Source: Oscillospiraceae bacterium (GTDB taxonomy: Bacteria; Bacillota; Clostridia; Oscillospirales; Oscillospiraceae). Taken from it: a DNA stretch of 53,634 bases. The position numbers and the translations under genes were made by a program. Every line of letters starts with the position of its first letter. Positions within the stretch are counted from its first letter, which is position 1. The stretch is from contig JAFVCD010000024.1 in NCBI GenBank assembly GCA_017479425.1, forward strand, positions 1-53,634. Reading direction: 5' to 3'. The notes beneath the pieces are model-generated. The model saw nothing but the letters and a program-made list of their open reading frames with translations, did no database searches and was not told where the DNA came from. Below are positions 8,994 to 33,800 of the stretch, one piece after another.

Positions 8994-9029
8994 TTGACTA
9001 CTTCGCTGAATTATGGTAAACTTACCATA
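8994..9029 (+). promoter_or_regulatory. Transport-operon promoter with overlapping palindromic operator
   Basis: TTGACT (8994-8999), 17 bases and TAAACT (9017-9022) form a plausible sigma-A promoter. A palindrome, TATGGTAAACTTACCATA (9012-9029, 8-bp arms around AC), covers the -10 and the region just after it, the right place for a repressor. The transcript would start near 9029, leaving about 95 bases of leader. No regulator gene is adjacent. Confidence 0.55.
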
Positions 9030-9126
9030 TCTATGTAATTTATTCCGCCGAGACGGGAACAAATGAGTCCGTCAAAGCGTCTGAAATGTGTAAACATAGG
9101 TTCTTTCTTTTTTCAGGAGGTACATG

Positions 9127-11703
9127 ATGAAGAATTTTACTCGCACGCTGGCACTCATTCTGGCGCTCGTAATGGTCATGGGCGCACTTTCCGGCTGCAC
9201 GCCGAAGAGTGACGGAGACCCGACAAAGCCAAATGAGAACACCCCCTCCGGACCGAAGCCGGAGGATAACCCTGCTATTTCCGACCCGGAGGGCTTCACC
9301 TACGTCGCAAGCTATTCAAAGCTCGATTCGGGCGAGGACGGAATGTATTACGACGTGCGTTACGCCGCCGGCAAGCTCTGGTACACCACCTCGGAGTATA
9401 TCAGCGACCCCGTCTACAATGAAAACGGAGATATGATCGGTGATAACGGATATACAAAGACTTATCTATGGAATATGGACACCGACGGAAGCAACATTAC
9501 GAAGCTCGAGGGCTTCGAGGCATACAAACCCGAGGAAGAAGGCTGGGACAACGCTTCGAGCTACATTCAGTCCATCGCCGACGCCGGCGACGGCAATATC
9601 TGGGTCGTAGAGAGCTATTACGCGAGCCGCAACACCGCTCCCGAGGGCGTTGAGCCCTACTCCGAGCAGTGGTACAACTATCAGGAGTACAAAAACGGCG
9701 CTATAATCGCAAAGCTCGGCCCGGACGGCTCTGCGCTTGCAACCATTGATTCGAGCGCTATCGCGCCCGAAGCGGATTACTTCTACGTCAATGGCCTCAT
9801 CCCGACGAAGGACGGCAAGCTTCTCGCCTTCAGCGATATGTCCTGTTATGTTCTGAGCACCGAGGGCGAGGTTGCCGGCGTGATTACGTCTGATAATTAC
9901 TTCGGCTCCGTTGTGGCCCTGCGCGACGGCACCATCGTCACACGCAGCTATGAGTATAATGAGCTTGACGGAACAGGCAAGGAAACGTGGAAGACCGTAG
10001 ATATCGAGAATTTCAAGCTCGGCGACGAGTACGACATCCCGTCCAAGGGCGACATCTATAACTACGTCACCGGCACCGGAGATTATGACCTCTATGGTAT
10101 GGGTCAGACCGGAATATACGGTGTGAAGATTGCCGACGGCACCTGCGAGGAGATCGTGAACTACATAAACAGCGATATCGATATGAGCGATATCGGCAAC
10201 ATCACCCCGCTTGACGACGGCACCTTCTTTGCCATTTCCTCCACCTGGAACGATCAGGGCATGGAGATGAGCATTGTCAATATCCACCCGGTCAAAAACA
10301 GCGAGATCCCGGTAAGAACCGTTCTCACCTTTGCCTGTATGTACTTAAACTACAACGTCCGCAGGCAGATCCTTAATTTCAACCGCAACAGCGATAAATA
10401 CCGCATCAAGGTCATTGATTACAGCCAGTACAACACGAATGACGATTATGAGGCGGGACTTACAAAGCTTACCACCGAGCTTCTTGCGGGCAACATCCCC
10501 GATATGTTCGATATAAATCAGCTCCCCGTAACCCGCCTTGCGGCGAAGGGCTATCTTGAGGAGCTTACACCGTGGATCGAGCAGGATACCGGCATCGGCG
10601 GCATGGCGGGACTTGTCGCGCCGATAATGAACGCCGTCAAGGACGCTGACGGAAAGCTCTGGTACACCGTTCCGACGGCATATCTCTCCACCGTTATGGC
10701 TCCGACGAGCCTCGTGGGCGACCTTGTCCGCACAAATCCCGACGGCAGCGTTTACTGGACGATTGCCGACCTTATGGAGGCTTACAAGCGTATGCCTCAG
10801 GGCGCGGACATCTTCTCAAGATACACAAATGCCTCCGATATGCTCAGTGAGCTCACAGGCTACATGATGGACGATCTCATAAACTGGTCGACCGGCGAGT
10901 GCAAGTTCGACTCTCCCGACTTCGTTGCAGCGCTCGAGTTCTGCAACCTCTTCCGCAAGACCCCGTATGACTGGGAGAAGGAGTACGACCCGAACGTTGA
11001 CGACTCCGACGCTTCCCGCTTCCGCGAGGGCAGACAGATGCTCTGGTCGACTCAGGTTAACGGCTTTACCGATTGGCGCCAGTACGACAGACTCTTTAAT
11101 GGCGCGACCTTCGTCGGCTACCCCGTTTCGAGCGGCAGCGGCAGCGCGTGGAATATCTCGAATAACGGCACGATCGCAATGAGCAGCCGCTGCTCCGATA
11201 AGGAGGGCGCGTGGAGCTTTATGCGCTACTTCTTCACCGAGGAGTTCCAGACAAATAACTACGGCATCCCGACTAACAAGGCTGTGTTCGACAAGATGCT
11301 CAATGACGCCTGCACCCCCCAGTACGAGGATAACTACGACGAGAACGGCAACGTTATCGGCAAGGTCGAGATACCGAAGGACTTTTACTGGTACGGCGAG
11401 GGCGACGGTGGCGTCTTTTATGCCGAGGATACCGCAGTGACCGCAACAAAGCAGGCAGGCACTATCACCGGCCCGAGCGAGCAGTACCCGGCGGACAGGT
11501 ATTTCTTCGCCATGACAGAGGAGGAGAGAGCAAAGATCGAGAGCGTAATGAACTCCACAACCCGCCTCGCCTCCGCCGATGAGAGCATCGTCACCATCGT
11601 TCTCGAGGAGGCGGCTCCGTACTTCGACGGCAAGCAGACCTCTCAGCAGACAGCCGACACCATTCAGAGAAGAATCAATCTCTACGTCAACGAGCAGAGG
11701 TAA
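9127..11703 (+). CDS. Giant lipoprotein: propeller-like domain plus solute-binding domain
   Basis: A lipid-anchored substrate-binding protein of a carbohydrate-type ABC importer. The signal peptide ends in the lipobox LSGC (Cys24 from this start), followed by a Pro/Asn/Lys-rich linker. Residues about 50-400 contain repeated blades with aromatic and DG turns (GKLWYTT, GNIWVVE, GKLLAFSD, GTIVTRS, GTFFAIS), which look like a beta-propeller. Residues about 410-858 match family-1 extracellular solute-binding proteins (LTKLTTELLAGNIPDMFDI, ARLAAKGYLEELTPWI, GKLWYTVPT). The total of 858 aa is about twice the usual binding-protein length. ATG 9127 is 6 bases after AGGAGG; the ATG at 9124 is only 3 bases away. 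It is first in the operon and is followed by two hairpins before the permeases. Confidence 0.85.
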   Translation: MKNFTRTLALILALVMVMGALSGCTPKSDGDPTKPNENTPSGPKPEDNPAISDPEGFTYVASYSKLDSGEDGMYYDVRYAAGKLWYTTSEYISDPVYNENGDMIGDNGYTKTYLWNMDTDGSNITKLEGFEAYKPEEEGWDNASSYIQSIADAGDGNIWVVESYYASRNTAPEGVEPYSEQWYNYQEYKNGAIIAKLGPDGSALATIDSSAIAPEADYFYVNGLIPTKDGKLLAFSDMSCYVLSTEGEVAGVITSDNYFGSVVALRDGTIVTRSYEYNELDGTGKETWKTVDIENFKLGDEYDIPSKGDIYNYVTGTGDYDLYGMGQTGIYGVKIADGTCEEIVNYINSDIDMSDIGNITPLDDGTFFAISSTWNDQGMEMSIVNIHPVKNSEIPVRTVLTFACMYLNYNVRRQILNFNRNSDKYRIKVIDYSQYNTNDDYEAGLTKLTTELLAGNIPDMFDINQLPVTRLAAKGYLEELTPWIEQDTGIGGMAGLVAPIMNAVKDADGKLWYTVPTAYLSTVMAPTSLVGDLVRTNPDGSVYWTIADLMEAYKRMPQGADIFSRYTNASDMLSELTGYMMDDLINWSTGECKFDSPDFVAALEFCNLFRKTPYDWEKEYDPNVDDSDASRFREGRQMLWSTQVNGFTDWRQYDRLFNGATFVGYPVSSGSGSAWNISNNGTIAMSSRCSDKEGAWSFMRYFFTEEFQTNNYGIPTNKAVFDKMLNDACTPQYEDNYDENGNVIGKVEIPKDFYWYGEGDGGVFYAEDTAVTATKQAGTITGPSEQYPADRYFFAMTEEERAKIESVMNSTTRLASADESIVTIVLEEAAPYFDGKQTSQQTADTIQRRINLYVNEQR

Positions 11704-11877
11704 CGTCGGCGTAAGCTTCATATCATGCGCTCTACCGCTGAGGGGCGCGGCAGAGCTTATTCATTACGCTGCGCCTCCTTTTCCACACAAAAGCATCGCT
11801 TTTGTGTGGATGGCAGGGGCTGGCAGGGGCGGGTCTCCGTACCCGCCCGATTACTGTGCAATACTAAAAGAAAGCAG
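11704..11877 (+). other. Intercistronic region with two stable hairpins
   Basis: No gene is seen between the binding protein and the first permease. A perfect 13-bp stem (11782-11794, 11798-11810, loop ATC) is followed by an 8-bp GC stem (11827-11834, 11841-11848, loop CTCCGT). A weaker imperfect stem lies at 11728-11755. None has a U-run, so they more probably protect the binding-protein mRNA or dampen downstream expression than stop all transcription. A mobile palindromic repeat is the alternative. Confidence 0.5.
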
Positions 11878-12840
11878 GTGAGCGTTATCGTTTCCCTGAA
11901 AGAAAAAATGGCGAGGAAGGCTCGCCTGAAGGAAATACGCGGTCCCATAACCGCAAATGAGCGGGCGGAGGGAGTGCTCCTGAAGCTCAAGGACGCGCTG
12001 TCCTCACTCCTGTTCTCCGGCCCGAGCTTTATCGGCGTGCTCATTTTCTTTATCGTACCCTTCGGCGTTGTAGTTTACTACTCGCTCATTCGCTCAAGCC
12101 TCAATCCGGAGTTTGTCGGGCTTGACAACTATCTCAATCTCATAAAAAACTCGACCTTCCAGACCGCCGCGAGGAACACGGCGATTTTCTCTGCGACTGC
12201 GGTTCCGCTCGCGGTGGTGCTGAGCCTTGTGCTGGCGCTGCTGCTCGACACGCGCATACCGCTCAAGAGCCAGTTCAGAACGTTCTTCCTCAGCCCGATG
12301 ATGGTGCCGGTGGCTTCAATAGTCCTCATCTGGCAGGTGCTTTTCAATCAGAACGGCGTTGTCAACGACGTGACTGCGCTCTTCGGCGCAGAGGCGATAG
12401 ACTGGTTCAAATCCGACCACGCGCCGCTCGTTGTTATTCTGCTCTTTCTGTGGAAAAACCTCGGCTACAACATGATACTCTTCATGTCGGCGCTGGCGAA
12501 TATCCCGACGGAGCTCCTTGAGGTCGCGGACGTCGAGGGCGCGAGCCCGCTTTATAAGTTCTTTGCTATAAAGCTCCGCTACCTCAGCCCGACGGTGCTT
12601 TTCGTTGCGATACTCTCGCTTATCAACTCCTTTAAGGTTTTCCGTGAGGTGTATCTGCTTACCGGCAACTACCCGTTCGATTCGCTCTACACACTCCAGC
12701 ATTTTATGAACAATATGTTCAAATCCCTCGACTATCAGAAGCTCTCCGCCGCGGCGGTCATGATGGCGATCGTAATGGTAGTCATCATCGCCGTTCTGTT
12801 CATCGTGGAGGATTGGTTCGGAAAGGACGTGGAGGGATGA
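11878..12840 (+). CDS. Sugar-type ABC transporter permease (MalF-like)
   Basis: One of two inner-membrane subunits of the importer. Its predicted ~320 aa has about six membrane segments. The EAA loop that contacts the ATPase reads IPTELLEVADVEGASPLYKFFAIKLRYLSP (about residues 210-240), typical of the carbohydrate uptake-1 family. The frame is open upstream to 11725 but that region is repetitive non-coding sequence. GTG 11878 (in AGCAGGTGAG) or ATG 11908 are the plausible starts; neither has an ideal ribosome site, so the N-terminus is uncertain. It overlaps the second permease by 4 bases (ATGA). Confidence 0.88.
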   Translation: MSVIVSLKEKMARKARLKEIRGPITANERAEGVLLKLKDALSSLLFSGPSFIGVLIFFIVPFGVVVYYSLIRSSLNPEFVGLDNYLNLIKNSTFQTAARNTAIFSATAVPLAVVLSLVLALLLDTRIPLKSQFRTFFLSPMMVPVASIVLIWQVLFNQNGVVNDVTALFGAEAIDWFKSDHAPLVVILLFLWKNLGYNMILFMSALANIPTELLEVADVEGASPLYKFFAIKLRYLSPTVLFVAILSLINSFKVFREVYLLTGNYPFDSLYTLQHFMNNMFKSLDYQKLSAAAVMMAIVMVVIIAVLFIVEDWFGKDVEG

Positions 12841-13718
12841 AGAAAAAGCATTACATCGGCAGGGCGATCACATTTATAGCCTGCCTCATCTTTGCTTTCG
12901 CGTTTCTTATGCCGACGGTGCTGACGATCACGAACAGCTTTATGACCGAGACCGAGATCGACGCAAACTACGGCGCGGTTTTCGGAACGGCAAACACCGG
13001 CAAAACCTACGTTTCCGAGAAGGTCAATCTGAAATTCATTCCGGACAAGGTGAGCTTTTCACAGTATATCACCGTGCTCTTCAAGAGTCCGGACTATCTC
13101 TTCAAATTCTGGAACAGCGTTATCCTCGTTGTGCCGATAGTCTTTTTACAGCTCGGCATCGCATCGCTTGCCGCCTACGGCTTCACACGCTGGCGTGGGA
13201 AAATAAGAGCGGCGATATTCTTCTTTTACGTCATCCTTATGCTGATGCCGTATCAGGTAACGCTTGTGCCGAACTACCTCGTTTCTGACTGGCTCGGCAT
13301 AATCAACACCCGCTCGGCGATAATACTGCCCGGCGCGGTGGCGCCGTTTTCCGTCTTTCTTCTGACGAAGTTTATGCGAAGAGTGCCGTATTCACTCATC
13401 GAGGCTGCGAAGATCGACGGCGCGAGCGAGTGGCACGTTTTCACAAAGATCTGCCTGCCTCAGTGCAGGGCGGCACTGTTCTCAATCGCAATTCTCGTTT
13501 TCATCGACTATTGGAATATGGTCGAGCAGCCGCTCATCCTGCTGGCTGATGAAACGCAGCAGCCCTTGAGCGTATTCCTCAGTAAAATAAACGCCGGCGA
13601 GGTCGGACTTGCCTTCGCCGTTGCTACGATATATATGGTGCCGACGCTGCTGCTGTTCCTCGGCGGCGAGGAATACCTCGTCGAGGGAATTGCGCATCAG
13701 GGCTCAGTAAAGGGGTAA
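12837..13718 (+). CDS. Sugar-type ABC transporter permease (MalG-like)
   Basis: The second membrane subunit of the importer, 293 aa with about six membrane helices. The EAA loop RVPYSLIEAAKIDGASEWHVFTKICLPQCRAAL is clear at about residues 182-214. A non-membrane insert (residues about 35-75, rich in Asn/Thr/Lys) follows the first helix and would face outside, as in MalG relatives. Translation is coupled to the preceding gene through ATGA at 12837, with GGAGGG immediately upstream. The next gene begins 4 bases after its stop. Confidence 0.9.
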   Translation: MKKKHYIGRAITFIACLIFAFAFLMPTVLTITNSFMTETEIDANYGAVFGTANTGKTYVSEKVNLKFIPDKVSFSQYITVLFKSPDYLFKFWNSVILVVPIVFLQLGIASLAAYGFTRWRGKIRAAIFFFYVILMLMPYQVTLVPNYLVSDWLGIINTRSAIILPGAVAPFSVFLLTKFMRRVPYSLIEAAKIDGASEWHVFTKICLPQCRAALFSIAILVFIDYWNMVEQPLILLADETQQPLSVFLSKINAGEVGLAFAVATIYMVPTLLLFLGGEEYLVEGIAHQGSVKG

Positions 13719-13722
13719 TACC

Positions 13723-15639
13723 ATGGAAGAAAAGAAGAATAAGAGAGGTTGGGTCAAGACGGCGGCGATCGTATTTCTGTCCGTTCTGCTTGTGCTGACC
13801 TTCTTCTCGAATACTATTATGAACGCGACTCTGCCGGAGGTTGCGATCCGCACCGTCACGAGCGGGTCGATAAACGTACAGATCCGCGGCACCGGCACCG
13901 TCAAGGCGACCGAAACCTATAACGTCACTGTTGATGAGAGCCGAAAGGTTCGGAGCGTAAACGTCAAGCTCGGCGACGAGGTATCTGTCGGCGACCTTAT
14001 TATGGTGCTCAGCGACGAGTCGAGCGAGGAGCTTGTGAACGCTGAGGCAGAGCTTAAGGAAGCCAAGCGCGTATACTATGAGACTGTAAACTTTGATACA
14101 AGCATCAGAGAAGCTACAAGAGATCTTAATGACGCTAAGGAGAATCTTGCCAAGGCTGAGAAGCTGCTTGCAAACGTAGCTGACTACGACGCCGCCGTTG
14201 CCGAAGCTGAAGCAAGATTAAAGGCCGCTGAAGAGGCAGTCAAGTCTGCTCAAACAGAAATAAATACAATCAATTCTCAGCTCAGCGCTCTATCAAAAGA
14301 GCTGAAAAAATATGATTCATCACTTGTAGACAAAGAAGTCAACGAAGAAAGCCTCGAGATTTTAAAAAACATAATGGCGACAGATTCCGAAAACGTCAAG
14401 GGTGCGCTTATAAAGCTTGAAATTGCAACCGATAACTATAAGTCGCGCTATGATGAGATTGTAAAAGAGGCGACGGATATAATAAAGCGCACCTCCGGCT
14501 ATAAGGCGCTGAGCGATAAGGCCGCACAGCAGCAGTATCTGGACGAGCGCCTGCAATACTACGTTGAAGAGGAATATGCGAAAATCAAGAACGGCACGAG
14601 CGAGCTTGTTCTGAAATGGAACAATACGACCGGCGAGTGGTACACCGACGCAGATTCCGAGCTTCAGAGCCTTTATGAGGAAGCCTATGAGGGTTATACT
14701 GAGGCAGTAAGCAACTACAACAAAGCTGTTGAGAACTATAAACTTTCTCAAGGCACAGAAATTCCGGACTTCATAGCCAAGTGTGAGGCAACTCTTAAGA
14801 CACTTGAACTTGCGACTGAGGATAAAGAAAACAAGGAAAAGGAAAAGAATGATGCCGAAACTGCACTTAGTGAGCTTAAGGATCTCGACCCGAGCGCTCT
14901 CACCAAGCTAAAGCGCGACGTTACCGACGCTCAGACAAACTACAACAAAACATCTTACGAATATTCGAATAAGCTTAATGACCAAAAGGCTCTTGTCGAA
15001 AAGCTCGAGGCTGAGGTCGCAAAATACTCCGGCGTACAGACCGGAACTGAGATCCACAGCGAAATTAACGGCGTAATCAAGCAGATCAACGTGTCCGCCG
15101 GCGCCAAGACCACGCCCGACAGCACTCTCGTAGCTATCGAGGTGCCGGACAGAGGCTACACCGCCGAGATGAGCGTGACCGTCGACCAGGCACAGCGCGT
15201 CGTGATCGGCGACAAGGCCGAAGTGCAGTCCGGCTGGTGGTGGGGCGGCAGAGATATTACCGCACGCCTCGTCGCTATCCGCACCGATCCGCAGACTGCA
15301 AGAACAAACCGCATTCTTGTGTTCGACATCTCCGGCTCCGACGTAAACTCCGGCGATACGCTGAACCTTACCATCGGCGAGCGCAGCCGCAGCTTCGACA
15401 CGATCGTGCCGAAGAGCGCGATGAGAAGCGACTCAAACGGCGACTTTGTTCTCATGGTAGTCGCGCGCCAGAGCCCGATGGGCAACCGCTACACCGCGCA
15501 GAGAATCGACGTAACCAAGCTCGCTGAGGACGATGTGAACGTAGCCGTTTCCGGCGACCTCAGCTATAACGACGCCGTTATAACCACCACTACCGCGCCC
15601 ATCTCAAGCGGTATGCAGGTAAGAATGGCAGGCAATTAA
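13723..15639 (+). CDS. HlyD/RND-type membrane fusion (periplasmic adaptor) protein
   Basis: A 638-aa adaptor of the kind that works with MacB or RND exporters, unusual inside a sugar importer operon. It has one N-terminal membrane anchor (about 10-32) and a first half-lipoyl/barrel segment (VRTVTSGSINVQIRGTGTVKATETYNVTV...VKLGDEVSVGDLIMVL). A very long Lys/Glu/Ala/Asn-rich coiled-coil hairpin spans about 100-440. After it come the second half-lipoyl part (IHSEINGVIKQINVSAGAKTTPDSTLVAIE), the beta-barrel and a membrane-proximal domain. Family adaptors are usually 350-450 aa, so the hairpin is greatly extended. The coiled-coil part is far poorer in G+C than its flanks. Three to four bases separate it from the permease before, 11 from the gene after. 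Confidence 0.88.
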   Translation: MEEKKNKRGWVKTAAIVFLSVLLVLTFFSNTIMNATLPEVAIRTVTSGSINVQIRGTGTVKATETYNVTVDESRKVRSVNVKLGDEVSVGDLIMVLSDESSEELVNAEAELKEAKRVYYETVNFDTSIREATRDLNDAKENLAKAEKLLANVADYDAAVAEAEARLKAAEEAVKSAQTEINTINSQLSALSKELKKYDSSLVDKEVNEESLEILKNIMATDSENVKGALIKLEIATDNYKSRYDEIVKEATDIIKRTSGYKALSDKAAQQQYLDERLQYYVEEEYAKIKNGTSELVLKWNNTTGEWYTDADSELQSLYEEAYEGYTEAVSNYNKAVENYKLSQGTEIPDFIAKCEATLKTLELATEDKENKEKEKNDAETALSELKDLDPSALTKLKRDVTDAQTNYNKTSYEYSNKLNDQKALVEKLEAEVAKYSGVQTGTEIHSEINGVIKQINVSAGAKTTPDSTLVAIEVPDRGYTAEMSVTVDQAQRVVIGDKAEVQSGWWWGGRDITARLVAIRTDPQTARTNRILVFDISGSDVNSGDTLNLTIGERSRSFDTIVPKSAMRSDSNGDFVLMVVARQSPMGNRYTAQRIDVTKLAEDDVNVAVSGDLSYNDAVITTTTAPISSGMQVRMAGN

Positions 15640-15650
15640 AGGACTATTCT

Positions 15651-16712
15651 ATGAAAGCATTTCTGTTAAAAAACAGAAAAATCGTGATTTCGGTGCTGAT
15701 AGCGCTCCTTTGCGTTATTCTGACCGGTGTGACGCTCGTGAGATATTTCTCGCTCGCCTCGCTTCTCCGAAGCCAGCAGGCGGCCGAAGCGTTCAAGGGC
15801 GAGAGCGATAAGCTCACCGCGCAGGTTAGCGCGTATTTCCCTGTGGGCGGCGGAATAACCTTCGAGGGAGTCTACTCCTTCCGTAACAATCTCGACAGTA
15901 AATACGTCGACGCGAGCATAGAAAAGCCAGCCGTCGGCGCAAACTGGAAGGACGGGTACTCCGCGAAAAGCTCAATCTCCGTCTCCGGCGCGAAGACGAC
16001 AACGGACTGCACGGTGTACGGCGTCGGAGGAGAGTACTTCTACTTCCACCCGCTTTACCTGCGCGACGGCAGCTATATCGCAGAGCCCGACCTTGTCCAC
16101 GACTGCGTTATCCTCGATGAGGAGCTTGCATGGCGCCTTTTCGGCGGCTTCGAGCTTGAGGGAATGACCGTCACCATTGGCGATAAGCCGTTCCGCATCG
16201 CCGGAGTTATCCGCCGCGAGGACGATTTTGCCACGAAGAGCGCGTATTCCGACGGCGCCGTGATGTATATGCACTATGACGCGCTGAATGAGCTTCAGGA
16301 GTCGAAGATCACGACCTATGAGCTTGTCGGCGTTGACCCCATCGACGGATTTCTGAAAAACATCGTAGCGGAGGGGTTTTCGGACGCCGCTGTTGTCGAA
16401 AACAGCGCGAGGTTTATGCCGCTGAATGAGCTTAATGTCCTGTCGCGTTACTTTACGCGCACTATGGTAACAGAGCCGGTAGTCTATCCCTATTGGGAAA
16501 ATGCCGCGCGCAACGTGGAATCTCGGCTTGCGCTGCTGCTCATTCCGGCGGCTGTGCTGCCGATCTATCCGATTGCTCTTGCAATCTACTGGGCGGTGCG
16601 CGGCATCAAGGCGGCAATTAGCGCACTGAAAACAGCAATCCCCGACGCGCTCGATAAAATCAGCGAGCGCCGATATGAACGCAGTATGAGAAAGAAGGCT
16701 AAAAATGGCTGA
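15651..16712 (+). CDS. Reduced MacB/FtsX-like membrane protein
   Basis: A 353-aa protein with one N-terminal helix (about 9-31), a large extracytoplasmic domain and one or two hydrophobic segments near residues 292-318, then a basic cytoplasmic tail. The outer domain resembles the periplasmic core of MacB-type proteins: CVILDEELAWRLFGGFELEGMTVTIGDKPFRIAGVI corresponds to the common segment in which a newly assigned residue pair precedes GxxxxIxGxxFxVVGV. Standard MacB/FtsX proteins have four helices and a C-terminal permease part; here the last three-helix unit is not seen. It overlaps the ATPase gene by 8 bases, so the two are made together. The function is inferred from family and context only. 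Confidence 0.7.
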   Translation: MKAFLLKNRKIVISVLIALLCVILTGVTLVRYFSLASLLRSQQAAEAFKGESDKLTAQVSAYFPVGGGITFEGVYSFRNNLDSKYVDASIEKPAVGANWKDGYSAKSSISVSGAKTTTDCTVYGVGGEYFYFHPLYLRDGSYIAEPDLVHDCVILDEELAWRLFGGFELEGMTVTIGDKPFRIAGVIRREDDFATKSAYSDGAVMYMHYDALNELQESKITTYELVGVDPIDGFLKNIVAEGFSDAAVVENSARFMPLNELNVLSRYFTRTMVTEPVVYPYWENAARNVESRLALLLIPAAVLPIYPIALAIYWAVRGIKAAISALKTAIPDALDKISERRYERSMRKKAKNG

Positions 16713-17811
16713 GGTCACACTTAAACACGTCTGGAAGGTCTATAAGGACAGCGGCGTTGAGGCTGTAAAGGACTTCAACCTCGAGATAAAGGATAAGGAA
16801 TTCGTAGTTTTCGTCGGTCCCTCCGGCTGTGGAAAGAGCACAACTCTTCGCATGGTCGCTGGACTTGAGGAGATATCCGGCGGCGAGATTTTCATCGGCG
16901 GCAAGAAGGTCAACAACGTTCAGCCAAAGGACAGAGATATCTCGATGGTTTTCCAGAACTACGCTCTCTATCCGCATATGTCGGTATTCGATAACATCGG
17001 CTTTCCGCTTCGTATGCGTCACTTCCCGCGCGCTGAGATAAAGCGCAGGGTAGAGGAGGCGGCGGATATCCTTGAGATACGCGACCTTCTGAAGCGAAAG
17101 CCGAAGGCTCTCTCCGGCGGTCAGCGCCAGCGCGTTGCGATCGGCAGAGCGATAGTGCGCGAGCCGCAGGTGTTCCTTATGGACGAGCCGCTCTCGAATC
17201 TCGATGCAAAGCTCCGCAATCAGATGCGCACCGAGCTCATAAAGCTCCGCGAGCGCATAAATACGACATTTATATATGTTACCCACGATCAGACAGAGGC
17301 GATGACCCTCGGCGACCGCATCGTAATTATGCACGACGGCGTGATAATGCAGGTCGGAAGCCCGAGCGAGGTGTTCAATAAGCCGGAAAATACCTTTGTC
17401 GCCGGCTTTATCGGAATGCCGCAGATGAACTTCCTCGATGGCGAGCTGAAAATCGGCGCAGAGAGCGCCTCGGTCACTGTCGGAGGCAAGGAGATCGCTC
17501 TGAACGCCGACCACTTCGAGCGCCTCAAGGCACACGGCGCAAGGAGCGGCAGGGTAACCTTCGGCATACGCCCAGAGCATTTCGAGATGAAGGAGGGCGG
17601 GATCGCTGCGAAGGCGGACGTCAGCGAGCTCACCGGCAGTACCTTGAACGTACACGCTAAGATCGGAGAGGCGGACGTTGTCGCGGTGGTGCAGATAGAT
17701 GAGGACGACGCCGAGCCGCCGAAGCCCGGAACGCCGATTTCCCTCGTTCCGGAGCAGAAGAGGATCCACATCTTCGACCCGGATACGGGCAAGAGCCTAT
17801 TATACGGATAA
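16705..17811 (+). CDS. MalK/UgpC-like ABC transporter ATPase
   Basis: Powers the importer: 368 aa, with a complete nucleotide-binding domain and a C-terminal regulatory TOBE/OB domain. Walker A GPSGCGKST lies at 38-46, the Q-loop MVFQNYALYPHM at about 81-92, the signature LSGGQRQR at 136-143, Walker B VFLMDEP at 156-162 and the switch histidine at 194 (YVTHDQTEAM). The C-terminal part includes FGIRPEHFE and FDPDTGKSLL, as in MsmK/UgpC proteins that serve several sugar importers. It is the last gene of the operon, followed by an intrinsic terminator at 17818-17845. It is the only ATPase here, so the adaptor and the MacB-like protein have no ATPase of their own. Confidence 0.94.
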   Translation: MAEVTLKHVWKVYKDSGVEAVKDFNLEIKDKEFVVFVGPSGCGKSTTLRMVAGLEEISGGEIFIGGKKVNNVQPKDRDISMVFQNYALYPHMSVFDNIGFPLRMRHFPRAEIKRRVEEAADILEIRDLLKRKPKALSGGQRQRVAIGRAIVREPQVFLMDEPLSNLDAKLRNQMRTELIKLRERINTTFIYVTHDQTEAMTLGDRIVIMHDGVIMQVGSPSEVFNKPENTFVAGFIGMPQMNFLDGELKIGAESASVTVGGKEIALNADHFERLKAHGARSGRVTFGIRPEHFEMKEGGIAAKADVSELTGSTLNVHAKIGEADVVAVVQIDEDDAEPPKPGTPISLVPEQKRIHIFDPDTGKSLLYG

Positions 17812-17817
17812 ATTCTA

Positions 17818-17845
17818 TCGGTCAGCAGATTGCTGGCCGATTTTT
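17818..17845 (+). terminator. Terminator of the six-gene transport operon
   Basis: A 9-bp stem with one G-T pair (17818-17826, 17832-17840) and loop AGATT, followed directly by TTTTT. It begins 7 bases after the ATPase stop codon. Confidence 0.85.
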
Positions 17846-26259: not shown

Positions 26260-28578
26260 TTATTCTGCGACGCGAACGAGAATAGAGTCGGAGAGATAGC
26301 CCGAGCGCACCGTCAGCACTGCCTGACCCTTAGCGACGCCGGTTATCTTGCCGTCATCGACTGTGAGAATACTGTCATCGGAGCTTGACCAGGAGAATTC
26401 GCCGTCTGAGGAAGCAGAATCGCTCTCTGCGGTGAGAATGATCGTTTCGTTCTTGCGGATAGTAATCTCACGGAGCTGATGATCCTGGTTGAAAACTCCC
26501 GCCTGTTTGCCGTTATATGCAATGAACAGGTTTTCATCAAGTATTATTTCTCGCGCAAACACACTTCCGTCTTTGTTTATTACCGTAAGCAGATTACCTT
26601 CGGGATTGTATGTCACGCGCACGCCGTCAGCCGGAAACTCCTCCTCATATTTTACGGAAGCCGTTATGCGGCTTGTGATATTGCCGATTGCGACGGTTAG
26701 GTACATATCAGCTACCTCGTCGCTAAACTGCAAAAACTCGTTATACAGAGCGCCGCCGAAGGCACCGGAGGGGCGGGCTTCCAAGTCTTTGGTAATCAGC
26801 GAAGCGAGGAGATTATTTGCCGCGCGCTTGTACTTCTCCTCCAGAGTGTGCAGGCTTTCAAACACTGCAGAAGAGTCGGAAAGTGCCGCCCGATACAGCT
26901 CGTCAACTGAGCTGAAGGAGCTGCCGGAGGAAAGATTATACTCTTTAAGCGACGCCGCGACCATCGTATCATGATCGGGGAAAGTCAAATATTCCAGCAT
27001 GTCAGACACCGTTCCGCTGCGATATGGCTTTGAGCCGAGCGCATTGACAAGCCAGATTATTCTGTCCGAATTCTCGAGCCATCTGCGGATGAGCTCGTCG
27101 CTCGCTTTCGTGCCGTAAGAATCGTAGCAGTTGAGGTACATCACCAGCACCTGCTCGTCGGTGAGCTCGCCGATGCGCTTGTAATCCTCGGAGGGGTTGG
27201 TAAGGCCGTAATTATCCGGCGCGTACCACTCGGCGTTCTCTGTGCTGAGGTCGGCGTTTGCGCGCTCCTTCAGCTCATCGCGGTAATCTGCCGCTGTTTT
27301 GTGATTCTCATCAAGCTTGACATCAGATAGAATATCCGCAAGCTCGTCGCGGGTGTCAAAAAACTCGATATACGCCGTTCTGCCGCTGCCCGTGACCATC
27401 GCCGCCTTTGCGTCGCCGTAGATATATACGCCGGAGTAGGGGGAATACTCAGAGAGCATATAGACGATGAGATATTCCGTTCCGTCCTCGCCCTCCCGGG
27501 AGCCGAGAACCTCGTACTCAACTACGGCGTTCGTGCCATTGTGCGCGCGCATCAAAAGGTGCTCCTTGAGCGCGGCGACGGCGGCGCTCTCGGACTCGTC
27601 CGTGACCTCGGCAAGTTCTACCACGACCGGCTCCTCCACGACATCATTCTCATCATCCTGCTTTTCGCCCGGTATAAGCGCAGAGCAGGCGCAGAGCGTG
27701 AGCGCGAGGACTGCCATGGCGCAAACTGCCAGAATAGTTACTTTTTTGTAGTCTCTGATGGCGATAATGCGCTCTTTGAGCGCTTTTTTGTTCTCAACGA
27801 GCGTAGCCGCCGGAACGCGCACCGGAAGACGGGCGGCGGAAGCCATATAGATCAGCGTCTCGCCGTAGCGAACTCTGCCCACCTCGTCAAGCGAGCGGCA
27901 AACGGCCTCGTCACAGCTCATTTCACAGCTTCGGTCGAGGTCGCGGGAGATGAAATACACCGCGGGATTGAACCAGTGCAGACTTCTCACCGCCAGCATA
28001 AGCCACTTTATAACGAGGTCTCGGCGGCGCCAGTGCACCGTTTCGTGCGCCAGTATGAGGTCAAGCTCCTCGCGCTCGTAGTGCCGCTTCGGCAGAACTA
28101 TCATCGGGCGCAGAACCCCCACCTGCATCGGAGTTTCAGCGGCTTTTGAGAGATACACCTTGAGCCGCCCGCTCATCTGCACATACTCAAGTCCGCGCTT
28201 AAGCCTCCTCAAAAATACGAAATACGCCGCAACATGGTAGAGGAAAAATCCGGCGGCAACCGCGGCATAGGCGGGAACTATCAGACTATGCCAGTCAAAG
28301 CTTTTCTCCACCGGCGCGGCTTCGACCTCTGCCGGCACTTCGGTTATAATTACCGGTATGTCATAGGTTTCTATGACCGTATATGGCGTTGCTTCCGGCG
28401 CGCTATTCGGTATCACGCCGACCTCAAAGCCGACGGGTATAAGAAGCCGCAGAAGCACCGGAAGCCATATGTAATAGAGAAAAGATTTTGAGAGTCTTTT
28501 GCCGCCGAGCGCCTTTATGAGAAAGACGATTCCGGCGAGGACTGCGCCCTCAAGCGACACAAGAAGCAGCTTATCCAT
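26260..28578 (-). CDS. BlaR1/MecR1-like M56 membrane metalloprotease with Ig-like tail
   Basis: The sensor/antirepressor partner of the BlaI-like gene just upstream. The N-terminal ~300 residues have four membrane segments and a cytoplasmic zinc-protease domain with HETVH (178-182), followed by CDEAVCRSL. After the last helix (AVCAMAVLALTLCAC) comes a ~465-aa extracytoplasmic region. It is not a penicillin-binding sensor: no SxxK/KTG pattern is apparent. It ends in a bacterial Ig-like group-2 domain (FSWSSSDDSILTVDDGKITGVAKGQAVLTV). The total of 772 aa exceeds classical BlaR1 (about 585-600 aa). ATG 28578 follows AGGTGG and overlaps the blaI stop by 8 bases; an in-frame GTG lies at 28587. The ligand is unknown. 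Confidence 0.85.
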   Translation of the reverse strand: MDKLLLVSLEGAVLAGIVFLIKALGGKRLSKSFLYYIWLPVLLRLLIPVGFEVGVIPNSAPEATPYTVIETYDIPVIITEVPAEVEAAPVEKSFDWHSLIVPAYAAVAAGFFLYHVAAYFVFLRRLKRGLEYVQMSGRLKVYLSKAAETPMQVGVLRPMIVLPKRHYEREELDLILAHETVHWRRRDLVIKWLMLAVRSLHWFNPAVYFISRDLDRSCEMSCDEAVCRSLDEVGRVRYGETLIYMASAARLPVRVPAATLVENKKALKERIIAIRDYKKVTILAVCAMAVLALTLCACSALIPGEKQDDENDVVEEPVVVELAEVTDESESAAVAALKEHLLMRAHNGTNAVVEYEVLGSREGEDGTEYLIVYMLSEYSPYSGVYIYGDAKAAMVTGSGRTAYIEFFDTRDELADILSDVKLDENHKTAADYRDELKERANADLSTENAEWYAPDNYGLTNPSEDYKRIGELTDEQVLVMYLNCYDSYGTKASDELIRRWLENSDRIIWLVNALGSKPYRSGTVSDMLEYLTFPDHDTMVAASLKEYNLSSGSSFSSVDELYRAALSDSSAVFESLHTLEEKYKRAANNLLASLITKDLEARPSGAFGGALYNEFLQFSDEVADMYLTVAIGNITSRITASVKYEEEFPADGVRVTYNPEGNLLTVINKDGSVFAREIILDENLFIAYNGKQAGVFNQDHQLREITIRKNETIILTAESDSASSDGEFSWSSSDDSILTVDDGKITGVAKGQAVLTVRSGYLSDSILVRVAE

Positions 28579-28942
28579 TTTTGCCACCTCGCAGAGTCTC
28601 GAGAAGCTCGGCTACCTCGTCCTCAGTCAGCTGACCGTCGGAAACGAGGGTTGCGACAAGCTTTTTTGCGCTTCCGTCGAATATTCTGTCCACATAGCTC
28701 CTTGCGGAGAACTCGTTGTACTCGCGCTCGGTCACAACTGCGGCGTATTTTCCGCGCCCGACCTGCTTGATGGCCTCCTTCAGGCGCAGATTCCGGACTA
28801 CGGTCTTGACCGTCGGCTCCTTCCAGTCGAGCTTTTCGGTGAGCGCGGCGATAATTTCGCTGAGCCCCATCGGCTCGCCGGATGCCCACAGAAGCTTCAT
28901 CACCTCAAGCTCAGAGTCGACGATCCTTTCAGCGTTACTCAT
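28571..28942 (-). CDS. BlaI/MecI/CopY-family repressor (copy 1)
   Basis: A 123-aa winged-helix repressor that binds operator dyads as a dimer and is inactivated when its membrane protease partner is triggered. LEVMKLLWASGEPMGLSEII is the usual start of the fold and EPTVKTVVRNLRLKEAIKQ the recognition-helix region. The C-terminal GQLTEDEVAELLETL dimerisation helices are typical. AGGAGG precedes the ATG by 7 bases. It is divergent from the second BlaI-like gene and forms an operon with the 772-aa protease gene. Confidence 0.9.
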   Translation of the reverse strand: MSNAERIVDSELEVMKLLWASGEPMGLSEIIAALTEKLDWKEPTVKTVVRNLRLKEAIKQVGRGKYAAVVTEREYNEFSARSYVDRIFDGSAKKLVATLVSDGQLTEDEVAELLETLRGGKNG

Positions 28943-29100: not shown

Positions 29101-29472
29101 ATGGCGGATTTTGAGATTGGTGCAGTGCAGGAGCGTTTTGCGGATATTGTTTGGGCGAATGAGCCGGTGGGTTCCGGCGAGCTTGTCAAGATCTGCGAGC
29201 GTGAGCTGAACTGGAAAAAGCCGACTACATACACAGTCCTGCGCAAGATGTGCGAAAAGGGACTTTTCAAAAACGAAAACGGCGTCGTATCGAGCCTCGT
29301 TTCAAAGGAGGAGTTCTACTCGCGCAAGTCCCTTGACATCGTCTCTGAGAGCTACGATGGCTCGCTTCCGGCATTCATAGCGGCGTTTATAAGCCGCAGG
29401 GAGCTCACAAAAGCGGAGGCGGACGAAATTCAGCGCATGATCGATGCATTCAGAAGCGGTGAAAGAAAATGA
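29101..29472 (+). CDS. BlaI/MecI/CopY-family repressor (copy 2)
   Basis: A second winged-helix repressor of 123 aa, the same length as copy 1 but clearly diverged. VQERFADIVWANEPVGSGELVKICERELNWKKPTTYTVLRKMCEKGLF gives the helix-turn-helix and recognition helix. The C-terminal half (FISRRELTKAEADEIQRMIDAF) provides the dimer interface. The true start is ATG 29101 after AAAGGAGGAGC; the frame extends upstream through the operators. It overlaps the giant protease gene by 4 bases (ATGA). Confidence 0.9.
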   Translation: MADFEIGAVQERFADIVWANEPVGSGELVKICERELNWKKPTTYTVLRKMCEKGLFKNENGVVSSLVSKEEFYSRKSLDIVSESYDGSLPAFIAAFISRRELTKAEADEIQRMIDAFRSGERK

Positions 29473-32400
29473 GCGAATTCTTTTTAGGCGTTGTAAATCT
29501 CTCGATAACCGCAAGCTGGCTCATTTTAGCGGTTATTATCGCAAGGCCGCTTATGAAGCGCGCACCGAGATGGATAGTCTGCGCGCTATGGGCGCTTGTG
29601 GCGATAAGGCTGTGCCTGCCCATATCCATCGAGAGTAAGGCAAGTTTAGTGCCGAGCGTGGAAACCGTGCCGCAGAACGTAGAGATGATGCCATCCCCGC
29701 GTATAGACTCCGGCATACCGATAGTAAACGAGGCTATAAACCCTGCTATCGCAGAATCATCGCTTGCGCCTACTCCGGAGGCGAGCATGAATCCCTTACA
29801 GTTATGGGTACCGATTGCTTCGATCATATGGCTAATAGGCATAGCGGCGATGCTTGCCTATGCGATAATAAGTTATTTGAGAGTGCGAAAAACCGTTGCT
29901 GCGTCGATACCCGCGGGCGAGGGGGTGAGAGTATGCGACGATATTAAAAGCCCGTTCATTCTGGGCATATTCAACCCCATAATCTACCTGCCGTCGAAGC
30001 TGCCTATGAACACCGTGGAGCAGGTCCTGGCGCACGAGCGGGCGCATTTAGCCCGTCATGACCACTGGTGGAAGCCGTTAGGCTACGCGATTCTGAGCTT
30101 TTACTGGTTCAATCCTCTCTGCTGGGTCGCGTACATTCTCCTCTGCCGCGATATAGAGCTTGCCTGCGACGAGCGGGTCATACGCGATATGGACAGAGAG
30201 TCCGTCGCGGCGTACTCTCAGGCGCTCTTAGATTGCTCACTGAACCGCAGAGTTATCGCGGCGTGTCCGCTCGCTTTCGGTGAGGTGGGGGTCAAGGAGC
30301 GCGTTAAGGCGGCGCTGAGCTACAAAAAGCCCGCGTTCTGGATAATAATCGCCGCCGTGGTGGTGAGCATAGTCATCGCCGTGTGCTTCATGACTAACCC
30401 CTCCAAAAAGCTGGAGGGCAAGCTCGGTGTTTCGATGGATATGGCGGTGGCGGAGCATAACGATGACAAAGAGCGCGGGGAGTTCTTCACCTATTCGTCT
30501 AAGGTTTTCAAAATCGACAGTCAGCGAGGCAAAACCACGGTCTACGCCTGGGTACTGAGCGAGGGCTTCAGCTATGAGGACGGCGAGGTGATCACGCTCT
30601 ACGGCTCGAGTGTACCGGTTGCGGTCACGTTCGACACGTCGGATAACAGCGAGAGCGGCACCTATCCGGTGCTTGAATACTGGGTGCCGCGCGACGGAAG
30701 CTACTACGCCGAGGACATCAGGGCGAAGTACCCGGCATCAATCCAAGCTGAGGCGATGAACGGGGACAGCTTCGTAGGCGATATGAAGCTTGAGAACTTC
30801 AACGCGGCGTATGATTACTTCATCGGCAATCCTAAGGACGGCAACGGCGTGTTCAAGCTCACAAAATGGACTGCCTCGAGCGCGAGGGCGTTCAATCAGT
30901 TTGTGCGCGAGGGCGATTTTGAGCTGAGCAAGGCGCAGATAAATGTGCTCATCGAGAGAGCAAACGGCATAAAGCGGCTCGTTAAGAGCGGCGAGTACGC
31001 GGGCTTTACTCCGGGCTATCAGATAAGCGTGAAGCTCAGCGGTCTTACTAAATATTCGCATTACGAATATGTCTACTTTAACGGCTACTCCGCCGAGCGG
31101 GATATGGTGGAGGTCATATTCAATAACGAGCGCTATGTGGTCGAGGACAGCCTCTTTGCCGCGTACCTGCGGAGCGTGACCTCGGGCGGGGCGGCGCTTG
31201 CCTGCGGCACATATAAATACAACGACTCCGCGCTCACTATAAACTCTGACGGCACGGCGCAGCTCATATTCTCGCCGATTTCAAGCTATATCTATATCGG
31301 AAACTACTCCGTAGACGGCGACAGACTTGACGTCGGCGGGTATATCTTCACCATAACGGACGAGGGACTTAGGTTTAACGCTGACGAGAGCCCGGAATAC
31401 GTCTGGGGCGGCTTCTTCCGCGACGGGAGCATTTTCAGACTCGACGCAGAGCCGGAACGGTTCCTCGGATGGGCGTATAAGGCGATCCTCGACGGCACGA
31501 AGAGCTTTATTGCCGCCGATACCGGAAAAGAGGCTTCTATCGGCGACTATGCGCCCTCGGGCTACGCCCTCGTTGACCTCGACCGCGACGGCGACGATGA
31601 GTGCGTTCTGTATCTTTCGAGCCAGCGCAGAGGCTCAACTTCGAGCTCATATGCGGTGCTTTACGAATACGGCGGGGAATACTACTGCGCGGCGCTAAAC
31701 TATATCTCCGCCATCAAATCCGACGGCACGATACTGCTCACCGAAGGCTCGGCAAACCGCGCGATCTTCAATGAAACCGGCTGCGCGCTCAAATCCAAGG
31801 CGTGGCAGGAGGGCGGCAAATACTACCTCGAGGACAACGGCGAGGTTAGCCGGAGGGTTTATGAAAACTACATGGGCATTCAGCGGGCGAAGGATGACGC
31901 GAAGCGGTACAGCCTTGTTGAAAAGAGTTATTCCACCCGTATCGTCAGGGGCGGGTACGTCGACAGCGCGGGCAAGTGGCTCGCGTTCAATTCCGATAAG
32001 CTTGCAATCAGCTCCGTCAGGCACCTGCCGATAAGGAGATTTGACACAAAAGAGCAGCTTGATAACAACGTGGAAAAGTACGGCTTTACTGAGGGCGTCA
32101 GCGAGGCGCTTTCAAAGTACAACGAGGCGTTTTTTGCCGAAAACAGCCTCATAACAGTGTGCTTCGACGCGGGCAGCATCGACTTCCGCTACGATGTGGA
32201 GTCCATAGCTTTGGAAGGCGGCAGCTTTTTGCTGAGTGTCTGTCAGACGAATGCGCCGGAGAGCTACAATTCCGCAATACAGAGCTGGTTCGTTATCTGC
32301 GAGGTGCCGGATGCTGACCTCGCGCTTGTCAAGGACTACGACGCTGTTATGACCTACCGCGCTCCCACGACGTTGGAGCTTCCCGAAAAGTACCGCAACT

Positions 32401-33800
32401 CGGTAATGGTAATAGGCTCTGATTTCTACTATAAGCCTACCTGGGAGTGGAGTGTGACATCCTCCGGAGCAGACTCTGGGCTTACGGGGTGGCTTGCCTC
32501 CTTCACCGTCTATTCTGAGGAGGAGTACCGCGCGAGCGTGGCGGGCGATATGTCCGGCGTTACGCTTTTCGGCTGGAGCGGCAGCGCGTGGTACGCTCTC
32601 CGCCAGCCGACGGATGTGACATTCGAGAGGGGCGATTTAGCCGAGTTCGAGGAGATTCAGGAGTGGTTCTGGAGGGAGGGAATTACAGAGTTCCTTAAAG
32701 AACACCCCGGTATAATTCCGGTGAAGCAGACTAATACCCTCGTCGATATTAACCTTGCGCGGGCGGCGTACGGCAATTTCGGCGAGCCGGAGGTGGAGTA
32801 CGGCGGAAAGAGCGTCGGCAAGGCGGGCGAAATACCGGGCTTTTACAGCGCTCTCAACATTATAAAGCGCTATTATTACGTCGTCGGCAGCGCGGTGGCG
32901 CCTGATACCGAGCCGGTAACGGTAAAGGTCAGCGGCTCGAGGCTCGATTTCTGGCAGGGTACGAATATCGTGCGCCTTTCGGACGGTAACAATGTGCAGA
33001 CCGTAGAGCTTGCGGCGTGGAACGGCAACACAGCGCCGGCGGGAGATTACGTGTTCTCTCTTATTGAGAGCGGCAGAAGAGCAATCGCAGGGCTTGCCGA
33101 TAATCAGTCCGGCGCGAAGATTCGGTTTAACCTCGACAAAACCGCTTATTTTGCCGACAGTGTCCCGACCGCTGGAGGCTTTGCGGGGCAAATCGCAGCT
33201 CACACATACGAAACCTCATCAGCCACGCCCAAAACCGACCCGCAGGACGTGCTTATAGAGCTTTCGGACGGTACGAAGCTCATATTCTATAAGTCTGACG
33301 AGTGGAAGGTCAGAATAGACGGTGGATTATATGAGGCGGAGGAGAATAAATACGAGTGGTCGCCCTATGACCTCGCAAGACAATGGCTCGACTATTGTGA
33401 GCTTGCGACAATCCCGGTCGTCGACTATGTTTCAAGCTTTATAACTGACCCATCGACTGCGGCGCGGGCGGTGGTTACGAACGCGTATGCCGACAGAGAG
33501 TTTCTCTCGGAGGGCAGCATGTTCAAGCTTAAGGACGGCGTGACCGTGCGTATCACTGAGGTAAACAGCTTAGATAACGACGTATATCAATTCATCGCGG
33601 AGATATTCTATGTTCCGGATGGCGAGAGAGCGCTGAGCCACCTCAATCCAGACGACGCAGGAACCTATGAAAACTACGTTGCAAGTGGCAGAGAGCCGCT
33701 CGTTGAGGAGCCGCCTGAGGGCACGCTCGTGATGCACCGCGTGGGCTACGTCAAGAAAACCGATACCGGCTGGCGCGGCGAAATAACCGGCACCGGATAA
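29469..33800 (+). CDS. Giant BlaR1-like M56 membrane protease/sensor
   Basis: A 1443-aa partner of the preceding repressor. The N-terminal ~310 residues have four membrane segments and an M56 zinc-protease domain: HERAH at 189-193, then CDERVIRDM near residue 238 as the third zinc ligand region. After the last helix (FWIIIAAVVVSIVIAVCFM) about 1130 residues face outside. They look like several beta-rich modules: a WVLSEGFSYEDGEVI-type segment, GTYKYNDSALTINSDGTA (found in some M56 tails), a calcium-binding-like DLDRDGDDE loop, and two modules that I do not recognise. No penicillin-binding motifs are visible. BlaR1 is normally about 600 aa. A perfect terminator follows at once. The signal sensed is unknown. 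Confidence 0.85.
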   Translation: MSEFFLGVVNLSITASWLILAVIIARPLMKRAPRWIVCALWALVAIRLCLPISIESKASLVPSVETVPQNVEMMPSPRIDSGIPIVNEAINPAIAESSLAPTPEASMNPLQLWVPIASIIWLIGIAAMLAYAIISYLRVRKTVAASIPAGEGVRVCDDIKSPFILGIFNPIIYLPSKLPMNTVEQVLAHERAHLARHDHWWKPLGYAILSFYWFNPLCWVAYILLCRDIELACDERVIRDMDRESVAAYSQALLDCSLNRRVIAACPLAFGEVGVKERVKAALSYKKPAFWIIIAAVVVSIVIAVCFMTNPSKKLEGKLGVSMDMAVAEHNDDKERGEFFTYSSKVFKIDSQRGKTTVYAWVLSEGFSYEDGEVITLYGSSVPVAVTFDTSDNSESGTYPVLEYWVPRDGSYYAEDIRAKYPASIQAEAMNGDSFVGDMKLENFNAAYDYFIGNPKDGNGVFKLTKWTASSARAFNQFVREGDFELSKAQINVLIERANGIKRLVKSGEYAGFTPGYQISVKLSGLTKYSHYEYVYFNGYSAERDMVEVIFNNERYVVEDSLFAAYLRSVTSGGAALACGTYKYNDSALTINSDGTAQLIFSPISSYIYIGNYSVDGDRLDVGGYIFTITDEGLRFNADESPEYVWGGFFRDGSIFRLDAEPERFLGWAYKAILDGTKSFIAADTGKEASIGDYAPSGYALVDLDRDGDDECVLYLSSQRRGSTSSSYAVLYEYGGEYYCAALNYISAIKSDGTILLTEGSANRAIFNETGCALKSKAWQEGGKYYLEDNGEVSRRVYENYMGIQRAKDDAKRYSLVEKSYSTRIVRGGYVDSAGKWLAFNSDKLAISSVRHLPIRRFDTKEQLDNNVEKYGFTEGVSEALSKYNEAFFAENSLITVCFDAGSIDFRYDVESIALEGGSFLLSVCQTNAPESYNSAIQSWFVICEVPDADLALVKDYDAVMTYRAPTTLELPEKYRNSVMVIGSDFYYKPTWEWSVTSSGADSGLTGWLASFTVYSEEEYRASVAGDMSGVTLFGWSGSAWYALRQPTDVTFERGDLAEFEEIQEWFWREGITEFLKEHPGIIPVKQTNTLVDINLARAAYGNFGEPEVEYGGKSVGKAGEIPGFYSALNIIKRYYYVVGSAVAPDTEPVTVKVSGSRLDFWQGTNIVRLSDGNNVQTVELAAWNGNTAPAGDYVFSLIESGRRAIAGLADNQSGAKIRFNLDKTAYFADSVPTAGGFAGQIAAHTYETSSATPKTDPQDVLIELSDGTKLIFYKSDEWKVRIDGGLYEAEENKYEWSPYDLARQWLDYCELATIPVVDYVSSFITDPSTAARAVVTNAYADREFLSEGSMFKLKDGVTVRITEVNSLDNDVYQFIAEIFYVPDGERALSHLNPDDAGTYENYVASGREPLVEEPPEGTLVMHRVGYVKKTDTGWRGEITGTG

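Follow-up and report, generated by a model that had tools for sequence, protein, structure and literature searches.

ATP-binding cassette (ABC) importers of the CUT1 type and MacAB-type exporters are the described systems closest to the locus reported here. HlyD/MacA-family adaptors are known from export systems, and we know of no CUT1 importer that has either an HlyD adaptor or a MacB core in its complex. Elsewhere, MCE-type ABC importers carry a tube or collar atop an ABC importer, and FtsEX reportedly works with the additional membrane co-factors SweC and SweD. The present locus lies in a stretch of 53,634 nucleotides from an Oscillospiraceae bacterium (assembly GCA_017479425.1, contig JAFVCD010000024.1, positions 1 to 53,634; this whole stretch is referred to as the window) and joins a CUT1 importer to an HlyD-type adaptor and a MacB-like membrane protein in a six-gene unit that is real and conserved. 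The system is probably a genuine and so far undescribed kind of import machine. A single conserved ABC importer with a second, extracytoplasmic layer is the best explanation of the whole, and we put its chances at about even. Sequence evidence argues, with moderate confidence, for the six genes forming one machine.

The six open reading frames (ORFs) are all on the plus strand between 9124 and 17811, at the place given in a preliminary description of this DNA, and comprise the following features.

9124..11703, plus strand: solute-binding lipoprotein (SBP), 859 aa, recognized by an N-terminal hydrophobic stretch, Cys25 (lipobox-like) and profile matches
From about residue 400 (about 10321) to residue 859, plus strand: C-terminal CUT1-type domain of the SBP, from profile search
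11908..12840, plus strand: permease 1 (CUT1, UgpA/GlcT-like), 310 aa, BPD_transp_1 E 2.1e-16
12837..13718, plus strand: permease 2 (CUT1, MalG/GlcU-like), 293 aa, from a family-consistent ATG, BPD_transp_1 E 6e-15
13723..15639, plus strand: HlyD/MFP-type adaptor (HlyD_3), 638 aa, with an N-terminal membrane helix, two half-lipoyl stretches and a barrel
13750..13827, plus strand: adaptor membrane helix and flank (residues 10-35), the site of highest conservation, with the FFSN motif
14011..15048, plus strand: adaptor region between the half-lipoyl stretches (residues 97-442), a presumed alpha-helical hairpin
15651..16712, plus strand: MacB-like protein, 353 aa, consisting of helix 1, MacB_PCD core (E 1.3e-9, residues 68-215), helix 2 and a short tail
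16485..16520, plus strand: MacB-like family signature YPYWENAAR..E, directly before helix 2, with P280-A286 invariant in 62 rows
16705..17811, plus strand: MalK/UgpC-type ATPase, 368 aa, UgpC 469 bits (cut-off 432)
17817..17841, plus strand: intrinsic-terminator-like hairpin followed by a T run

The preliminary description had proposed six co-directional genes with overlaps or small gaps after the binding protein, an 8-base overlap of the ATPase and MacB-like genes and a single terminator at the end of the operon, and the coordinates bear out all of this. Permease 1 and permease 2 overlap by 4 bases and permease 2 is separated from the adaptor gene by 4 bases (family-consistent starts), whereas 11 bases lie between the adaptor and MacB-like genes, and the latter overlaps the ATPase gene at 16705-16712. 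Permease 1 most likely starts at the ATG at 11908, which gives 310 aa as in its relatives, and not at 11725, where the open frame begins; about 204 bases therefore separate it from the SBP gene. Terminator-like sites numbered 15 in the region versus 10.7 expected by shuffling, and the hairpin at 17817-17841 has the longest stem among those listed. A candidate promoter at 8994 was rejected, as promoter-like matches were at chance level (7 found, 6.6 expected). The window genome is a metagenome-assembled genome (MAG) of 1.77 Mb in 44 contigs, 84% complete, and a SpoIIE gene in the window fits a spore-forming monoderm host.

Pfam and NCBIfam agree with the gene families originally assigned, including a complete carbohydrate-type importer made of an SBP, two CUT1 permeases and a MalK/UgpC-type ATPase. 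The ATPase contains the Pfam domains ABC_tran, OB_MalK and TOBE_2, scores above the cut-off of NCBIfam UgpC, and has Walker A, LSGGQ, Walker B, the H-loop and the OB and TOBE regulatory part that characterize MalK-type proteins. It is the only ATPase of the operon, so that the stated lack of a MacB-type ATPase also stands. Both BPD_transp_1 permeases possess an EAA loop, which reads EAAKIDGA in permease 2; permease 1 gave no match to the strict EAA pattern, and its EVADVEGA was judged by eye to be a degenerate form. The sugar-type extracellular SBP was recognized at the profile level, and the window SBP as a single sequence gave no Pfam SBP match.

A scan of one genome per species by the WENAA signature yielded 238 relatives, of which the best 80 were kept (L071-L150); 60 of these loci have more than 6 kb upstream of the MacB-like gene. 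They partly overlap a further 40 regions (L031-L070), some on the same contigs, and the two sets are not independent samples. Alignments were built from the window together with 36 of the 40 regions (A1), 61 of the 80 loci (A2, MacB-like), 50 of 70 (A3) and 46 of 59 SBPs (A4). The order permease 1-permease 2-HlyD-MacB-like was retained in all 60 loci, nearly all of them in Oscillospiraceae-type MAGs, which supports the earlier view of the gene set as one conserved unit. In L031-L070, 32 of the 33 uncut regions had the order permease 2-HlyD-MacB, and L068 had the same genes in another order. The median gap from HlyD to MacB-like was 1 base, and that from MacB-like to the ATPase, where the ATPase follows, was -1. 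An SBP was present in 55 of the 60 loci, and an operon-type ATPase in 22. CUT1 importers frequently rely on a shared ATPase, as reported for Clostridium thermocellum and others, and the ATPase is often encoded outside the cluster, as in C. thermocellum transporter B (PMC9601137).

Rare clusters with the two middle genes scattered elsewhere, the pattern named beforehand as counting against a unit, were not what emerged: the MacB-like profile (A2) matched 42 of 150 genomes of the family with one copy in each of the 42, and HlyD adjoined the MacB-like gene in 79 of 80 loci, the other (L092) being cut by a contig end. The one addition from a plain search with the MacB-like protein was a fragment of 40 aa in G003, on a second contig. 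HlyD was found in 44 genomes, 41 of which were also MacB-like-positive, with G003 (contig end), G056, G057 and G078 as exceptions. The SBP family (E up to 1e-30) was present in 42 of 42 MacB-like-positive genomes, and by this co-occurrence the proposed link of the adaptor/MacB-like pair to the large lipoprotein gains indirect support; the overlap was far above chance (hypergeometric p about 1e-32, kinship ignored). A search of 398 genomes across the phylum gave strong MacB-like matches in four, namely the window genome, G288, G463 and G290, all with the whole arrangement. Among the 80 kept relatives, the closest named MacB-like protein was from an Oscillospiraceae MAG of goat reticulum (98% identical), and these relatives also included the named strain record Maledivibacter halophilus M1 (Clostridia, Peptostreptococcales).

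Sequence divergence differed strongly between the parts. Median identity was 73% and 67% for the permeases, 39% for both HlyD and MacB-like, and 25% and 41% for the SBP domains; conserved permeases with diverged outer parts suggest one kind of passage with varied receptors. In a mirror-tree analysis of 46 of the 47 complete loci (L123 was left out), in which shared ancestry was not removed, co-variation given the permeases was found between the SBP N-terminal domain and HlyD (partial r 0.43) and MacB-like (0.38), with none of 300 shuffles as high. This co-variation agrees with an outer-layer reading and is only suggestive.

The MacB-like protein retains the extracytoplasmic core of MacB and lacks its transport part. 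Its solved relatives are MacB/YknZ cores, and its alignment with exporter MacBs was restricted to this core (profile-profile E 9.8e-17, window-family positions 54-264). A simple hydropathy count predicted two membrane helices in the window protein, two in 42 of 62 members and three in 20 of 62. The Pfam scan gave no FtsX domain match in the window protein, and the FtsX coupling motif E.G.R...GA was found in 0 of 62 MacB-like proteins versus 12 of 12 exporter MacBs. Thus, of the features of a MacAB exporter, the HlyD/MacA-type adaptor and the MacB periplasmic core domain are present, whereas the FtsX membrane domain with its coupling motif and a MacB-type ATPase in the operon are absent; for comparison, 13 of 15 exporter regions (L219-L233) have a 229-259-aa ABC ATPase beside the adaptor. 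Because the FtsX part and the coupling motif are missing, the protein is no exporter permease and a working MacB exporter was rejected as a candidate. Since the motif is missing and homology extends over the core only, a MacB-type ATPase cannot power the protein by the established mechanism. The original label of a MacB-core membrane protein therefore holds for the extracytoplasmic core and fails for the transport part (two helices, no FtsX domain), and conversion of the machine to an export task, which had also been considered, is not indicated with that part gone.

The adaptor belongs to HlyD_3 in Pfam, matches NCBIfam RND_mfp below its cut-off, and has MacA, EmrA and HlyD as solved relatives. 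The region between its half-lipoyl stretches comprises 346 residues in the window protein and 210-466 aa among 51 family members, and is presumed to be an alpha-helical hairpin from MFP family membership and coiled-coil matches. If this hairpin is two-armed, the arms of the window protein would reach about 26 nm at most (0.15 nm for each of 173 residues) and could, in principle, be long enough for a thick wall. Conservation peaks in the membrane helix and its flank (residues 10-35), with a mean majority fraction of 0.83 versus 0.30 in the hairpin region, which would be unusual for a mere anchor. Of 20 window-type adaptors, 19 carry the FFSN motif in this helix, as do all 4 of a second hybrid type; neither of the 2 of a third type and none of 15 exporter adaptors has it.

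These further types extend the pairing beyond the window's lineage. The second type comprises four loci (L210, L216, L217 and L218) in G299, G351 and G494, from two families outside the window's own, with the order permease 1-permease 2-HlyD (388-403 aa)-MacB-core (471-480 aa)-MalK-type ATPase-SBP (459-498 aa). Its SBP has no extra domain, and its MacB-core protein has several more helices, no FtsX match and no coupling motif (0 of 4). The notion that weak phylum-wide MacB matches are all plain exporters was thereby rejected, since four regions belong to this second hybrid type (three of 18 fetched). L210 is flanked by D-Ala-D-Ala carboxypeptidase and glycosyltransferase genes. A third, looser variant occurs in G078 and G056, in the window's family (L208:3880-12170 and L209:1581-9263), and consists of HlyD, a protein that is at most weakly MacB-core-like, a 405-aa permease (the only one seen) and a MalK-type ATPase. 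In a quick unrooted adaptor tree (SH-aLRT), the three hybrid types each formed one group with support of 97, 100 and 100, and the exporters were grouped with support of 40. The existence of separate hybrid types means that the pairing of an adaptor and MacB core with CUT1 components is no accident of one lineage.

The 859-aa lipoprotein consists of an extra N-terminal domain and the SBP domain (about residues 400-859), and its Cys25 is invariant in 47 SBP rows. The nearest solved relative of the SBP domain is CbpC (PDB 7x0o; profile E 2.9e-34 at positions 425-791, and E 4.9e-8 for the window protein alone). According to one study, CbpC bound none of the sugars tested and its pocket is blocked, whereas an earlier study had reported binding; a mutant grew normally (PMC9601137). 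The N-terminal domain is probably a beta-propeller, for which the evidence is moderate: profile matches to propeller proteins reach E of about 2e-8 over some 50 positions (207-259), and among 47 SBP members Reg_prop was found in 5 and PQQ_2 in 2. SBP_bac_1 was matched in 35 of these members.

Receptors of this family are not confined to the core. Among the 45 SBP-positive genomes, 15 had at least 2 matches over nearly the whole SBP profile (maximum at least 6), and up to 21 SBP-family matches were found in one genome (G551); some extra copies flank the core and others are on other contigs. Twenty regions chosen around further SBPs (L181-L200, 10 genomes) contained 28 SBP ORFs without an adjoining permease, HlyD or MacB-like match, 25 of which are at least 640 aa long. 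In five of the 60 loci (L117, L127, L143, L147 and L149) the core lacks an SBP, and the prediction that such cores have SBPs elsewhere in the genome held in all five, with 17, 4, 21, 7 and 4 matches, respectively, of which 5, 2, 6, 1 and 1 cover the whole profile (matches may be gene pieces). The core components themselves are single: MacB-like in 8 of 8 genomes (these five and three others), and the core-type permease 2 in 9 of 9 genomes including that of the window (bit scores of 486 or more, versus 193 or less for the next best).

The scan of the neighbourhood of the cores and receptors covered 54 of the 88 proteins upstream, 66 of the 128 downstream and 58 of the 80 next to SBPs; the first 25 of 53, 80 and 110 families, respectively, were listed. 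Counts among the families listed were 8 (HisKA) and 4 (Response_reg) for the 54 upstream proteins, 3 (GH25, lysozyme-type) for the 66 downstream proteins, and 3 (FtsX) and 2 (MacB_PCD) for the 58 SBP neighbours. Upstream of the SBP, L102, L114, L119, L120, L122, L125, L126, L130 and other loci contain ORFs of the size expected for histidine kinases and response regulators. In L197:3439-16285, three related proteins of 1148-1166 aa stand beside two SBPs; one of them, scanned in detail, has an FtsX end, and a YafQ match in this region is probably spurious. The window also contains, close to one another on opposite strands, two BlaR1-type M56 peptidase proteins, at 26263-28587 (minus strand) and 29469-33797 (plus strand), the second of which is 1443 aa long with only its M56 part recognized.

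The outer-layer reading is preferred because the transport and ATP-hydrolyzing parts are of the importer type, the carriers tested have receptors, and the transport parts of MacB are missing. According to this reading, the two CUT1 permeases and the MalK-type ATPase, operon-encoded or shared from elsewhere, would form the energized importer, and the adaptor would be anchored by its conserved membrane helix packing against the permeases. The MacB-like protein, having lost its transport part, would hold the adaptor over the importer as a MacB core holds MacA, and together they would build a collar or stalk that enters or crosses the thick wall. Receptors with their extra, probably beta-propeller, domain and a sugar-type binding domain would dock on this collar and deliver to the permeases a ligand that is most likely an oligosaccharide or a fragment of cell-wall type. 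Several receptors, some of them encoded far away, may be served by one core. We infer the physical complex, its ring or stalk shape, the inward direction, the sharing of the core and the substrate from this combination of features. A broader proposal can be put forward only tentatively, and we hold it to be somewhat doubtful: that Clostridia have in these loci a novel class of importer that spans the wall, in which a stripped-down MacB core forms a docking collar together with a MacA-like adaptor and up to about twenty scattered receptors share one transport core, and which exists in at least two, perhaps three, separate sequence types.

Several observations weigh against the outer-layer reading. 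Distribution is patchy, with no match in 108 of the 150 family genomes or in two genomes of the same genus that are 100% and 99% complete, and the co-occurrence statistic ignores ancestry. An SBP without a MacB-like match was found in G028, G057 and G114 (in G057, a short contig encodes both permeases and HlyD), and the SBP match of G065 covers the binding domain only. As for the receptors, 5 of the 20 extra-SBP regions are cut off by contig ends at less than 9 kb, the 5 to 18 CUT1 permease matches per genome include other permeases that could serve the extra SBPs, the beta-propeller assignment is based on weak matches, and for CbpC, the nearest solved SBP, one study found none of its test sugars to bind (PMC9601137). 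Moreover, the third variant (L208, L209) is without the FFSN motif, and the neighbour families listed included no consistent sugar-use genes and were mostly housekeeping.

The alternative that survives best, itself unlikely, is an ordinary sugar importer whose adaptor and MacB-like protein passively anchor or space the receptor in the wall with no role in transport. The importer parts are indeed complete and ordinary in sequence, and permeases far better conserved than the outer parts are what a loosely constrained accessory would lead one to expect; nevertheless, the adaptor membrane helix is highly conserved, every one of the 60 cores has the pair, and there is no known case of HlyD or MacB cores that serve purely as anchors. 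Less probable again is an FtsEX-like mechanical or signalling machine, in which the importer-like core would use ATP to move the outer layer and thereby control a sensor kinase or enzymes of the wall, with the SBPs serving as sensors instead of delivering ligand. The exact part missing here is the mechanical, FtsX-type one, CUT1 permeases paired with a MalK ATPase have no known role other than transport, and most of the neighbours scanned are not kinases. FtsEX with SweC/SweD nonetheless provides a precedent, and histidine-kinase genes lie near some cores (the HisKA and Response_reg proteins among the families listed above). In the same direction as this precedent, a sensor SBP with a two-component system, CuaD, is described in a related Clostridium (PMC10384115), and the pocket of CbpC is described as blocked (PMC9601137).

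Very improbable is an importer core running outward, with the adaptor having turned the importer fold into an exporter or a glycan secretion machine: the solved relatives of the adaptor are MacA, EmrA and HlyD, and such adaptors are otherwise known from outward transport, yet 55 of the 60 loci contain an SBP and the genomes of the other five encode one elsewhere, which fits uptake. Least probable of all, and already disfavoured, is the view that HlyD and the MacB-like protein are a separate exporter, merely co-transcribed, that borrows one of the MacB-type ATPases the genomes may encode elsewhere, for although the families are those of MacAB exporters, the FtsX membrane part and coupling motif are lacking, the linkage to the permeases is fixed in 60 of 60 loci, and the distant second type (L210, L216-L218) repeats permease 1-permease 2-HlyD-MacB with a MalK-type ATPase.

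If the outer-layer reading is true, conserved use of an HlyD/MacA adaptor by an importer would change the annotation of adaptors and MacB cores, which is 'efflux' in many genomes, and monoderm bacteria would have a device comparable to the transporter tubes of diderms. If several receptors share one core, this would explain the many binding proteins in gut Clostridia with small genomes. No description of such a system was found in the open-licence PMC literature, where absence is no proof of novelty.

Compared with known systems, the window locus resembles MCE-type ABC importers (Mla, Mce1) only in the working idea; the permeases are different, the six proteins gave no MCE domain match, and no membership is claimed. 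Likewise, none of the six is an exporter-type ABC protein with a fused membrane domain, as in type I secretion (HlyBD). In its core the system would work as a CUT1 importer does, and in its outer layer as MacAB does. With FtsEX and SweC/SweD it shares an ABC core with extra membrane co-factors acting outside, whereas it has a MalK-type ATPase and an SBP and no FtsX. MacAB(-TolC) and YknWXYZ exporters are similar in their adjacent genes for an HlyD-type adaptor and a MacB periplasmic core domain; the window system, which lacks the FtsX domain, coupling motif and MacB ATPase and has CUT1 permeases and MalK instead, is no member of MacAB because two defining features were tested and are absent. 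CbpC (C. thermocellum transporter C), the nearest solved relative of the SBP domain, has 438 residues in its PDB entry and no extra N-terminal domain. The importers of the CUT1/MalFGK2 type (UgpABCE, GlcTUV and the C. thermocellum cellodextrin transporters) share with the window system two BPD_transp_1 permeases, a MalK-type ATPase with OB/TOBE and a lipoprotein SBP, and differ in that here the HlyD adaptor and MacB core are constant components and the SBP has an additional domain at its N-terminus.

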